Shown here piece by piece: positions 52,391-56,460 of a stretch of 64,000 nt of DNA; position 1 is the stretch's first letter, and each line of letters starts with the position of its first letter. The notes under the pieces were generated by a model. The model did no database searches, was not told the DNA's origin, and saw only the letters and a program-made list of their open reading frames with translations. Source of the stretch: Haloarcula nitratireducens (lineage in GTDB: Archaea; Halobacteriota; Halobacteria; Halobacteriales; Haloarculaceae). The stretch lies in NCBI RefSeq assembly GCF_019599505.1, contig NZ_RKLT01000001.1, positions 930,001 to 994,000 on the forward strand, given 5' to 3'. A program made the translations under genes and the position numbers.

Positions 52391-53425
52391 ATGGAAACGC
52401 GGAAAGTGCAGCGGCTGGGTCCGTCGACGCTCGCGATGACGCTACCGTCGGAGTGGGCCGGCGAGCACAACGTCGAGAAAGGAGACGAAGTGTCGCTTCG
52501 GATGGGCGGAAAGGGAACGCTGACCGTTCTCCCCGAGTCCGTCCAGACGGAGGAGTCGGAGGCGGTAATCCACGCCGAGAACCTCTCTGCCGACGCCGTC
52601 GAGCGTGCCATCGTCGCCCAGTACGTGCTCGGTCGGCGCATCATCCACGTCGAGGCGCCCGAAGGAGAGACGCTCGAATCCGCCCACATCAACGCCGTCT
52701 ACAACGCCGAGACCCAGCTCATGGGACTCGGCGTCATCGAGGAGACACCGAACCGCATCACCATCCGCTGTTCGGTCGACCCCGAGGACTTCACGCTCGA
52801 CAACCTCCTCGAACGGCTGGAGTCGACCGGCTCGACGATGCGGAACGAGGCCGTCAAGGCGCTGGCTCACGGTAACCCGGACCTCGCACAGCGGGCGCTG
52901 AACCGGGAGCGGCAGGCGAACAAGATCTTCGTCCTCCTCCTGCGCCTCATCTTCACCGCCTATCAGAACCCCAACCTCGCGCGGGCGGTGGGGCTCGAAG
53001 ACGGCTTCCCGCTCATCGGCTACCGCTCCATCGCGAAGAACCTCGAACTCACCGCCGACAACGCCGAGGACATCGCCGAGATCGCTTTAGAGACGACCGA
53101 CCACTCGCTCGACGTCGAGAGTTCGACGATGCGTCGCATCCGCGATTTCACCGACGAAGTCAACGAGATAACCGGCCTCGCGGTGCAGGCCGCCGTCGAA
53201 CGCGACTACGACACCGCGATTCAGGTGCGCGAGACCTACTCGAAAATCGGCGACAAGGAACACGACATCCTCGACGACCTCCCGGAGATGGACAACGAGA
53301 GCCTGCTGCAGGTGCGCGAGGTGCTCGTCAGCCTCCAGCAGACCGCGGAATACGCGGTCAGGAACGCCGAGATAGCCACGAACCTCGCGCTCGACGAGGA
53401 GTCCGAACACACGACGATTCGGTAA
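52391..53425 (+). CDS. Phosphate uptake regulator with AbrB-like and PhoU domains
   Basis: A 344-aa protein. The N-terminal 50 residues (METRKVQRLGPSTLAMTLPS...) are an AbrB/SpoVT swapped-hairpin DNA-binding domain. The rest is a three-helix PhoU repeat region (about 130-340), with DNAEDIAEIALETTDHSLD and EYAVRNAEIATNLALDEE. In haloarchaea such fusions regulate phosphate transport genes, so the protein may sense PhoU partner state and bind DNA directly. No pst genes are in the window, so it acts in trans. Confidence 0.9.
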   Translation: METRKVQRLGPSTLAMTLPSEWAGEHNVEKGDEVSLRMGGKGTLTVLPESVQTEESEAVIHAENLSADAVERAIVAQYVLGRRIIHVEAPEGETLESAHINAVYNAETQLMGLGVIEETPNRITIRCSVDPEDFTLDNLLERLESTGSTMRNEAVKALAHGNPDLAQRALNRERQANKIFVLLLRLIFTAYQNPNLARAVGLEDGFPLIGYRSIAKNLELTADNAEDIAEIALETTDHSLDVESSTMRRIRDFTDEVNEITGLAVQAAVERDYDTAIQVRETYSKIGDKEHDILDDLPEMDNESLLQVREVLVSLQQTAEYAVRNAEIATNLALDEESEHTTIR

Positions 53426-53479: not shown

Positions 53480-53487
53480 ACTTAACC
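53480..53487 (+). promoter_or_regulatory. TATA-like box of the SSADH/decarboxylase operon
   Basis: ACTTAACC lies 26-33 nt before the ATG at 53513. It separates this two-gene unit from the PhoU-family gene upstream. Confidence 0.4.
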
Positions 53488-53512: not shown

Positions 53513-54874
53513 ATGGAGGTCACTAATCCGGCGACCGGCGAGCGGGTCGACTCGTACGAGGAGGACGGCGAGGACGACGTAGAGGCCGCCCTCGAGACCG
53601 CGGTCGAGACGTTCGACTCGTGGCGGGACCGCCCGCTCCAGGAGCGGACGGACCTGCTCGCGAGCGCGGCCGAGGTCCTCCGTGAGAACAAACAGCGCTA
53701 CGCCGAGACGATGACCGAGGAGATGGGGAAACCCATCACGCAGGCGAAGTCGGAGGTCGAGAAGTGCGCGTGGGTCTGTGAGCACTACTCCGAACACGCC
53801 AGCGAGTACCTGGCCGAGAAGGGGCATCCGAGTCCGGCGGGGTCGACCGCCAAGACCGTCTACGAACCGCTCGGACCGGTACTGGCGGTCATGCCGTGGA
53901 ACTTCCCGTTCTGGCAGGTCTTTCGGTTCGCCGCGCCGTACGTCACCGCCGGCAACGTCGGCCTGCTGAAACACGCCTCGAACGTCCCCGGCTGCTCGGA
54001 GGCCATCGAGGAGGTGTTCCGCGAGGCGGGCTATCCCGAGGGGGCGTTCCAGTCGCTGCTGGTCTCCTCGGACCAGGTCGAGGGCGTCCTCGAAGACGAC
54101 CGGGTGAAGGCGGCGACCCTGACCGGGAGCGGTCCCGCCGGGCGGTCCGTCGCCGCGACGGCCGGCGAGAACCTGAAGAAGACGGTGCTGGAACTGGGCG
54201 GGAGCGACCCGTACGTCGTCCTCGACGACGCTGACGTCGAGGAGGCCGCCGAGACGGGTGCGTGGGCGCGCGTCCAGAACGGCGGCCAGTCCTGTATCGC
54301 GGCGAAGCGCTTCATCGTTCACACGGACGTCTACGACGAGTTCGAGGAGAAGTTCGTCGAGCAGATGGAGTCGTACACGATCGGTGACCCGACCGACGAG
54401 GACACGGAGATCGGCCCGCAGGCCCGCGAGAGCCTGCTCGAAGACCTGCACGAACAGGTCGAAGACAGCGTCGACGCCGGCGCGGACCTGCTGACCGGCG
54501 GCGAACCGCTGGACCGCGAGGGCGCGTACTACCCGCCGACGGTCCTCGCTAACGTTCCCGAGGGCTGTCCCGTCGACAGCGAAGAGGTGTTCGGCCCGGC
54601 CGCGCCGGTGTACGAAGTCGAAGACGAGGAGGAAGCCATTCGGAAGGCCAACGACACGGAGTTCGGGCTGGGCGCGAGCGTCTGGACCGAGGACAGGGAA
54701 CGCGGCGAACGCCTCGCCGGGCGAATCGACGCCGGCTGCGTCTACGTCAACCAGCTCGTGAAGTCCGATCCCCGCGTGCCCTTCGGCGGCATCAAGGAGT
54801 CGGGCTACGGCCGCGAACTCTCGGGTGCCGGGATGCGCGAGTTCGTCAACCGCAAGACGGTGTGGGTAGAGTGA
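53513..54874 (+). CDS. Succinate-semialdehyde dehydrogenase (GabD1-like aldehyde dehydrogenase)
   Basis: A 453-aa aldehyde dehydrogenase that should oxidise succinate semialdehyde to succinate with NAD(P)+. Key residues are Asn130 (PWNFPFW), Glu227 (LELGGSDP) and nucleophile Cys261 ([15 protein letters not shown]). The latter string and the short 450-aa form are typical of the GabD1 branch found in cyanobacteria and mycobacteria. Its stop codon shares one base with the ATG of the next gene, a thiamine-diphosphate decarboxylase, so the two form an operon and probably one pathway. Other short-chain semialdehydes are possible substrates. Confidence 0.9.
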
Positions 54875-56460
54875 TGCGGGCGTCCGATCTCCTGGTCGCG
54901 TCTCTCGAACGCGAGGGCGTCGAGCACGTCTTCGGCCTGCCGGGCGAGGAGATGGAGGACCTCCTGTTCTCGATCCGGGACTCCGAGGTGACGTTCGTCC
55001 CGGTGCGACACGAGCAGGGCGCGGCGTTCATGGCCGACGTCCACGGGCGACTGACCGGCGACGCCGGCGTCTGCCTCTCGACGCTCGGCCCCGGCGCGAC
55101 GAACCTCCTCACCGGCGTCGCGGACGCGCACCTCGATAAGAGCCCGCTCGTCGCCATCACCGCACAGGGGAGCCTCGAACGCCTCCACAAGGAGAGCCAC
55201 CAGGCGCTCGACGTCATCGACCTGTTCGGCCCCATCACGAAGTGGAACGCCCAGCTCAACGACCCCGACATCATCCACGAGTCGGTCCGCAAGGCGTTCA
55301 AGATGGCCGAGCACGAGAAACCCGGCGCGACGCACCTCGAACTCCCCGAGGACGTGGCCGCCGAGGACGCCGACGTAGAGCCGATGCCGACCCGCGACCG
55401 GGTCCGTGTCGGCGCGCCGGACAGGGAGGCCCTCGACCGGGTGAAATCGCTCCTCGAAGACGCCGACCGACCGATCGCCATCGCCGGCAACGGCGCGGTT
55501 CGCACGCGGGCGTCCTCGCAGTTGCGCGCCCTCGTCGAGGCGACGGACATGCCGACCGTCTCGACGTACATGGGCAAGGGCGCGGTCTCGGACGACGACG
55601 AGCACTCGCTGCTGACGCTGGACTCGGGAGCGCACGGCGAGGCCGCGAGCGCGCTCGAGGAGGCGGACCTCGTCCTCACCGTCGGCTACGACATCGCCGA
55701 GCACGACCCGGCGGGGTGGGAACACGGCAGCCCCGTCGTCCACGTCGACAGCCAACCCGCCGAGGTGTACGAGGCCTACAACCCGCAGGTGGAGGTCATC
55801 GCGGACATCGGCGAGACGCTCCGCGAACTCACCGAGTGGTGCGAGGCCAAGGCCCCGGAGTTCGACACGGAGTGGTACGCGGACCGCCGGGACCACATCG
55901 TCGACGACATCGACCGCGAACCGACCGCAGAAGCGCCCTTCACCGTCGAGAGCGTGGTCCCGATGCTGCGCGACGCGATGGCCGACGACGACGTGCTCAT
56001 CTCCGACGTCGGGAACCACAAGATGGCCATCGCCCAGAACTTCCCCACCTACGAACCCAACACCTGCATCATCTCGAACGGGTTGGCGTCGATGGGGATC
56101 GGCGTCCCCGGCGGACTGGCCGCGGACCTCGCGGTCGACTCGAACGTCGTCGTCGGCACGGGCGACGGCGGCTTCCTGATGAACGCCGCCGAGATCGAGA
56201 CCGCGACCAGACTGGGCTGTTCGTACACCATCGTCGTCTTCTGCGACGACGACTACGGACTCATCTCTCGGAAGCAGTCGGACCACACCGGCGAGTCCTT
56301 CGGGACGACACTCACCACGCCCGACCTCGTCACGTTCGCCGAGAGCTTCGGCATCGACGGCTACCGAGCCGATTCGGCCGAAGAACTCGAGAGCGCGCTC
56401 GACGAGGCCGTCGGCGGCGACATGGCCCTCATCGAGGTGCCGGTCGAAGGCACGAGCTGA
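54874..56460 (+). CDS. Thiamine-diphosphate enzyme, acetolactate-synthase-like; candidate 2-oxoglutarate decarboxylase
   Basis: A 528-aa ThDP enzyme of the POX/AHAS family. The cofactor-activating glutamate is Glu47 in VRHEQGAAFMADVHGRLTG; CLSTLGPGATNLLTGVADA follows. The ThDP/Mg2+ motif starts GDGGFLMNAAE (430-440) and ends CDDDYGL, with Asp where Asn is common. KESHQALDVIDLFGPITKWN and SNGLASMGIGVPGG are shared with the cyanobacterial 2-oxoglutarate decarboxylase clade rather than with IlvB. There is no small regulatory subunit or ilvC nearby, which argues against acetolactate synthesis. The ATG at 54874 overlaps the SSADH stop by one base. Substrate needs assay. Confidence 0.84.
   Translation: MRASDLLVASLEREGVEHVFGLPGEEMEDLLFSIRDSEVTFVPVRHEQGAAFMADVHGRLTGDAGVCLSTLGPGATNLLTGVADAHLDKSPLVAITAQGSLERLHKESHQALDVIDLFGPITKWNAQLNDPDIIHESVRKAFKMAEHEKPGATHLELPEDVAAEDADVEPMPTRDRVRVGAPDREALDRVKSLLEDADRPIAIAGNGAVRTRASSQLRALVEATDMPTVSTYMGKGAVSDDDEHSLLTLDSGAHGEAASALEEADLVLTVGYDIAEHDPAGWEHGSPVVHVDSQPAEVYEAYNPQVEVIADIGETLRELTEWCEAKAPEFDTEWYADRRDHIVDDIDREPTAEAPFTVESVVPMLRDAMADDDVLISDVGNHKMAIAQNFPTYEPNTCIISNGLASMGIGVPGGLAADLAVDSNVVVGTGDGGFLMNAAEIETATRLGCSYTIVVFCDDDYGLISRKQSDHTGESFGTTLTTPDLVTFAESFGIDGYRADSAEELESALDEAVGGDMALIEVPVEGTS

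Follow-up and report, generated by a model that had tools for sequence, protein, structure and literature searches.

A predicted 2-oxoglutarate decarboxylase/succinate-semialdehyde dehydrogenase operon in the haloarchaeon Haloarcula nitratireducens

Two adjoining genes of Haloarcula nitratireducens raise the question of whether a haloarchaeon may convert 2-oxoglutarate to succinate by a route best known from cyanobacteria. The genes lie in a 64,000-nucleotide stretch (contig NZ_RKLT01000001.1 of assembly GCF_019599505.1, positions 930,001 to 994,000), which is referred to here as the window and provides the coordinates given below. The first gene (53513–54874, + strand; 453 aa, Pfam Aldedh) encodes an aldehyde dehydrogenase (ALDH) of the GabD1/SySSADH type of succinate-semialdehyde dehydrogenase (SSADH), and the second (54874–56460, + strand; 528 aa, Pfam TPP_enzyme_N/M/C) encodes a thiamine diphosphate (ThDP)-dependent enzyme of the PRK08322 family that resembles 2-oxoglutarate decarboxylase. 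Judged from sequence, the pair most probably represents a true archaeal operon for 2-oxoglutarate decarboxylase and SSADH that carries the wrong name in databases, and a probability of about three in four is assigned to the prediction that it provides a route to succinate from 2-oxoglutarate that needs neither coenzyme A (CoA) nor ferredoxin. In this route the ThDP enzyme would take CO2 off 2-oxoglutarate and release succinate semialdehyde; the SSADH, probably translated from a shared transcript, would then oxidize the semialdehyde to succinate, probably with NADP+. Flux through the route is presumed.

Family and active site of the ThDP enzyme

The best NCBIfam model for the ThDP protein is PRK08322/NF006187 (592 bits vs a cut-off of 509), with lower scores for AlsS (418 bits) and for biosynthetic IlvB (343 bits with the top model). 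The title of NF006187 is 'acetolactate synthase large subunit', and this name is carried by 20 of the 23 named entries among the 120 homologues listed, the other three being named thiamine pyrophosphate-binding protein. The same model, however, takes at 878 bits a protein of Microcystis aeruginosa NIES-4325 (locus L069), so the label is not diagnostic of acetolactate synthesis. This protein is taken to be the purified 2-oxoglutarate decarboxylase MiKGD because it comes from the same strain, has 550 aa and a mass of 59.8 kDa (59.82 in the published report) and agrees with all 17 published active-site residues in both letter and number. Both MiKGD and its relative MaKGD have been purified and decarboxylate 2-oxoglutarate, and MaKGD yielded aldehyde from none of the five other 2-oxoacids tried (PMC10418658). 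The window protein is 44.5% identical to the NIES-4325 protein, 34% to AlsS and 28% to Escherichia coli IlvI and IlvB. A separate IlvB is encoded in G001, the nearest relative examined. As an observation on annotation, NF006187 is a curated model that confers the acetolactate synthase name although a presumed purified 2-oxoglutarate decarboxylase far exceeds its cut-off. A ThDP protein with 76% identity is named for the bacterium Salinibacter sp. 10B (P0031), which suggests sharing or transfer of the gene across domains.

A tree of ThDP enzymes, which took 77 of 118 rows including 16 haloarchaeal ones, separated the PRK08322 members from E. coli IlvB, IlvI, Gcl, Oxc and PoxB and from the haloarchaeal IlvB of G001 with support of 100/98, and from Klebsiella AlsS at 96/97, splits that are to be read with the long outgroup branches in mind. 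The solved 'acetolactate synthase' 13bb joins the base of the PRK08322 group on a long branch. The haloarchaeal rows, 16 in all, cluster together (100/100) and are nested in a subgroup of 25 rows (100/99) that also holds Bacteroidota, Woesearchaeota, Omnitrophota and others. Constraining the haloarchaeal rows to group with IlvB or with AlsS was rejected (approximately unbiased test, p-AU 0.00028 and 0.0073, respectively); by these tests and the active-site residues described below, an IlvB or AlsS identity was rejected. A single clade of haloarchaeal and cyanobacterial enzymes was also rejected (p-AU 1.5e-52), the two not being sister branches. Strict orthology to the cyanobacterial branch was thus rejected, and the haloarchaeal enzyme is a member of the same family rather than a close orthologue of the proven decarboxylase.

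In MaKGD, 17 positions are reported to touch ThDP or 2-oxoglutarate (PMC10418658), at 14 of which the window protein is identical (E50, V382, H385, K386, A408, M410, G434, D435, G436, G437, D462, Y465, L467 and K471, in MaKGD numbering). The catalytic Glu50, which serves ThDP activation, and Asp435 of the GDG motif are both kept in this three-domain protein, as Glu47 (codon 55012–55014, + strand) and as Asp431 of the GDGG ThDP/Mg motif (56164–56166, + strand) by residue alignment. Across the family 14 positions were tabulated, with the GDGG glycines read separately. The table leaves out L012, L013, L014 and L025 (partial or interrupted) and L118 (a cut Gcl, in place of which L124 was used); L114, L116, L117 and L123 were unmatched and hence do not form rows. 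Counted among the 44 haloarchaeal-type rows are L004, with Mollicutes in its record title, and L005, with Euryarchaeota.

Five of the six 2-oxoglutarate contacts (Val382, Lys386, Ala408, Leu467 and Lys471, but not Gln254) are kept. Lys386, corresponding to Lys383 of the window protein (56020–56022, + strand), is present in all 44 haloarchaeal-type and all 64 other family rows, and is replaced by Gln in E. coli IlvB and IlvI and by His in AlsS. Lys471, the docked salt bridge to 2-oxoglutarate and Lys467 of the window protein (56272–56274, + strand), is kept in 34 of the 44 haloarchaeal-type and 59 of the 64 other rows; Gln stands there in AlsS and E. coli IlvB, and Trp in E. coli IlvI. The lysine contacts of MaKGD were obtained by docking to a modelled structure rather than from a crystal (PMC10418658). 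MaKGD positions 408 and 471 align with Gln420 and Gln483 of Klebsiella AlsS, where the window protein has Ala405 (56086–56088, + strand) and Lys467. With a shift in numbering, these glutamines would equal Gln424 and Gln487 of Bacillus AlsS, which are reported to position the second pyruvate (PMC9469723). The presence of Ala and Lys in place of the AlsS acceptor glutamines therefore points against acetolactate synthesis.

The dehydrogenase, the locus and its recurrence

The solved structures closest to the dehydrogenase are 4it9 and 3vz1, both named succinate-semialdehyde dehydrogenase (505 bits; 52% identity to 4it9 over 449 columns) and taken, from the use of 3VZ3 in PMC7510979, as the a2771 enzyme of Synechococcus PCC 7002. 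All ten mapped SSADH residues are kept (Cys262, Glu228, Asn131, Trp130, Trp135, Arg139, Ser207, Ser419, Lys154 and Ser157); Glu360 of the Cyanothece numbering, not mapped with certainty, stands outside these ten. Arg139 and Ser419 are described as lying near the substrate carboxylate, and Lys154 and Ser157 as governing NADP preference (PMC7510979). On the + strand of the window, residue alignment places the codons of Arg138 (Arg139) at 53924–53926, of Lys153 to Ser156 (Lys154, Ser157) at 53969–53980, of the catalytic Cys261 (Cys262) at 54293–54295 and of Ser418 (Ser419) at 54764–54766.

The two genes share one base, the stop codon TGA at 54872–54874 meeting the start codon ATG at 54874–54876 in the string GTGATG. 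A mechanical GTG start at 54862 would lengthen the ThDP protein by four residues, and the ATG at 54874, which yields 528 aa, fits the start of its relatives. The same gene order recurs in G001, whose proteins are 97% and 95% identical to those of the window, and in haloarchaeal genomes at large, so the arrangement is not due to chance. In a sample of 145 haloarchaeal genomes, in which the ThDP scores are bimodal (555–627 vs at most 426 bits), 45 carry the ThDP gene above the cut-off, and in 26 of these the SSADH gene immediately precedes it on the same strand, with a gap of −1 to 264 bases. A GabD1-like SSADH (at least 576 bits) is present in 45/45 ThDP-positive vs 44/100 ThDP-negative genomes (Fisher 1.2e-12), and the association persists for the non-adjacent genomes, 19 of 19 of which encode the SSADH elsewhere (p 1.3e-6 against the same 44/100). 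In a wider set of 391 genomes, the ThDP gene was found in 136, a few of them with partial frames alone. The neighbours of four haloarchaeal copies that have no SSADH gene nearby (L006, L007, L009 and L010) are unrelated to this pathway. A contig labelled Mollicutes (L004) carries a haloarchaeal-type pair with 67% and 70% identity, and its bin label looks wrong.

Around the operon, three flanking genes were scanned against Pfam and NCBIfam; one is PhoU/MazE-like, one NAD-kinase-like and one LEA_2, and ilvN, ilvC and alsD are not among them. The first, just 5' of the operon (52391–53425), encodes a protein that joins a MazE-like N-terminal domain to a PhoU domain. Six neighbours of the operon in the window were looked for next to the pair in 15 contig loci and six genome stretches, and none was seen there. 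By eye, a possible TATA-like element, CTTAACC (53481–53487, + strand), may be read about 29 nt before the SSADH start codon, a position that would possibly suit a leaderless transcript.

Much of the preliminary description of this DNA is borne out by these observations. The one-base overlap (TGATG) is exact, the absence of a small-subunit gene or ilvC neighbour is true for the three scanned genes, and the segments ESHQALD, TKWN, SNGLASMGIG and GDGGFLMN are present, with close versions in the Microcystis enzyme. The call of a GabD1-type SSADH agrees with the SySSADH-like identity and residues, and the claim of misannotation holds for the named homologues. Grouping inside IlvB or AlsS, the outcome said to speak against the proposal, was rejected by the tree tests. 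The description had further equated the genes with 'exactly this pair' of Synechococcus PCC 7002, which stands at the level of family and fails for strict orthology. Its reading of a bypass operon is supported on predictive grounds by membership of the family of a proven decarboxylase, by most substrate and cofactor residues and by the SySSADH-like partner.

Competing readings and the KorA-type oxidoreductase

Several observations weigh against a 2-oxoglutarate decarboxylase/SSADH route, in addition to the rejected clade with cyanobacteria. In the ThDP enzyme, MaKGD Gln254 and Ala384 are replaced by Gly and Asn, and the C-terminus is shorter and sets a Gly against Tyr531; position 254 is Gly in all 44 haloarchaeal-type rows vs Gln in 38 of the 64 others, and 10 of the 44 have N, Q, E or H in place of Lys471. 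The dehydrogenase reaches 612 bits in the NCBIfam SSADH equivalog NF006915, its top-scoring model, vs a cut-off of 730. The co-occurrence statistics ignore shared ancestry. In G130, an ilvB-ilvC-leuC-leuD...leuB run (L168:7750-19998) encloses the pair, which stands between leuD and leuB along with two sugar-phosphate genes; here the LeuB-like and IlvB calls come from searches and IlvC, LeuC and LeuD were called by eye. On the branch that is sister to the haloarchaeal clade, the partner is an ALDH of another type, and the four ALDHs of this other type that were scanned all match lactaldehyde dehydrogenase best, below its cut-off. A link to glutamate dehydrogenase, the product of which would be 2-oxoglutarate, is rare (2/117 loci searched). 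Finally, the absence of KorA-type genes, discussed below, does not predict the pair.

The partner data bear mainly on a reading in which the ThDP enzyme non-oxidatively decarboxylates some other 2-oxoacid, such as 2-oxoadipate or a compound from sugar-acid breakdown, and the ALDH oxidizes the corresponding aldehyde. Among 41 scored family rows, an SSADH-type ALDH is found near the ThDP gene in 26 and the other type in 15, and the type of partner switches at least five times across the ThDP tree, which fits either one aldehyde with interchangeable oxidizing partners or a change of substrate. The other ALDH type, its lactaldehyde dehydrogenase-like matches, the switching and the variable Lys471 all favour this reading. 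Set against it are the SySSADH-like partner of the window with its carboxylate-binding residues, the match of Lys383 and Lys467 to docked 2-oxoglutarate contacts and the presence of the same SSADH type on distant branches, including cyanobacteria, Rokubacteria, Dehalococcoidia and Bacteroidota, as well as Omnitrophota, Neomarinimicrobiota and others. A different 2-oxoacid as the substrate is accordingly considered improbable, although it is the strongest of the competing readings.

ThDP enzymes of this fold include many that ligate, which lends some weight to a carboligase that builds an acyloin from the carbanion derived from 2-oxoglutarate, with the SSADH merely clearing leaked semialdehyde. 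A precedent is the acyloin chemistry of Mycobacterium Rv1248c with glyoxylate, as cited in PMC10418658, but the cyanobacterial relatives release the aldehyde (same source), and the one-base overlap with the SSADH gene suggests that the aldehyde is the product, so that a carboligase appears very unlikely. Equally slight is the chance of a catabolic or biosynthetic acetolactate synthase that lies by chance beside an ALDH gene, for which the NCBIfam title, most database names and the ilv-leu run of G130 speak, and against which stand the tree tests, the replaced acceptor glutamines, the lack of small-subunit, ilvC and alsD genes among the scanned neighbours, the separate IlvB of G001 and the same family name on a proven 2-oxoglutarate decarboxylase.

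Neighbourhoods elsewhere in the family vary. A set of 20 neighbour open reading frames of bacterial relatives is mixed, with one glutamate-dehydrogenase-like. The two glutamate-dehydrogenase-like loci, which, though rare, speak for 2-oxoglutarate as the substrate, are in G219 and on a Phycisphaeraceae contig, where the gene immediately precedes the ThDP gene (L045:3614-4963) and the ALDH partner is of the other type. Two contigs of metagenome-assembled Nitrosopumilus genomes (L028 and L044) carry a divergent ThDP family member, and the stretch retrieved around it shows no SSADH-like gene.

Where the 2-oxoglutarate decarboxylase/SSADH route is predicted, it would usually be a second one, because KorA-type genes are present in 383 of the 391 haloarchaeal genomes, including G001, which has KorAB. 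KorAB makes succinyl-CoA and reduced ferredoxin, and the alpha subunit of succinyl-CoA synthetase was found in 145/145 genomes. In most haloarchaea with the pair, the route would thus form an extra branch beside the KorA-type oxidoreductase and succinyl-CoA synthetase; it may be the chief route in a few genomes that lack KorA-type genes. The oxidoreductase alpha subunits fall into two subfamilies that share about 36% identity. NCBIfam does not separate them, and we take them to be Kor and Por from haloarchaeal annotation.

All eight KorA-less genomes have citrate synthase. Four of them (G022, G130, G219 and G249) carry the ThDP gene and SSADH, and four (G002, G008, G287 and G383) carry neither. 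A link between KorA loss and the pair was considered and found no statistical support (4/8 vs 132/383, Fisher p 0.46), and a simple replacement is further opposed by the latter four genomes, in which no gene searched for supplies the 2-oxoglutarate step; in G002 and G008, no KorA-type, E1 dehydrogenase, PRK08322-type ThDP or GabD1-type SSADH gene was found. G130, a single contig, has a Por-like sole oxidoreductase alpha/beta pair and no E1 dehydrogenase that could be found. In G022 (120 contigs), no oxoacid:ferredoxin oxidoreductase alpha subunit and one E1-type gene were found. In G219, which is 92% complete and has no KorA-type gene found, there are two copies of the pair, one of them followed on the same strand by the glutamate-dehydrogenase-like gene (L173:6186-7331, L172:6043-9002), a Pfam ELFV member below the NCBIfam cut-offs. 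For G249, whose congeners (genus g55) have KorA, the missing gene may reflect a gap in the assembly. It is therefore a tentative proposal, rated somewhat below even, that in some haloarchaea, with G130, G022 and G219 as candidates, the bypass replaced 2-oxoglutarate:ferredoxin oxidoreductase and alone closes the citric acid cycle.

Comparison with known systems

In the published view, as given in PMC9768450, cyanobacteria use the decarboxylase and SSADH, and aerobic halobacteria use the ferredoxin enzyme. No report of a decarboxylase/SSADH route in haloarchaea was found in the open literature searched, which does not include Zhang and Bryant 2011, a paper that may mention non-cyanobacterial homologues. 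Most likely, the locus extends an already described pathway to a lineage in which it is new. If so, about a third of the sampled haloarchaeal species (136/391) carry a cyanobacterial-style route hidden by the acetolactate synthase label, and a curated family model spreads that name.

The cyanobacterial decarboxylases (Synechococcus PCC 7002 A2770, Synechocystis sll1981 and Microcystis MAE_06010/MiAbW_01735), which act with an SSADH such as A2771, share the PRK08322 family with the window protein, and at cyanobacterial loci such as L036, L050 and L053 the SSADH gene also lies upstream, in the order seen here. The likeness extends to 44.5% identity with the NIES-4325 protein, the same ThDP residues and most substrate residues. 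Unlike the cyanobacterial enzymes, the archaeal ones form a branch that is not their sister, have Gly and Asn in place of Gln254 and Ala384, and end about where Tyr531 would lie; most haloarchaea, moreover, also have a KorA-type gene. The dehydrogenase resembles the cyanobacterial SSADHs (SySSADH, 4it9/3vz1, and Cyanothece cce4228) in its 52% identity to 4it9 and in ten shared residues that include Lys154 and Ser157, and differs in being a predicted haloarchaeal enzyme below the NCBIfam SSADH cut-off. AlsS (1ozf, 4rjj) and the IlvB of acetohydroxyacid synthase belong to the same three-domain superfamily as the window ThDP protein, which nevertheless stands in a separate clade, lacks the AlsS acceptor glutamines and has no regulatory subunit gene beside it. 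Haloarchaeal KorAB would have the same metabolic outcome, carrying 2-oxoglutarate toward succinate, with a different protein assembly, and if the predicted route is real, it becomes testable whether cells choose, at one carbon branch point, between a route through ferredoxin and CoA and one through NADP.

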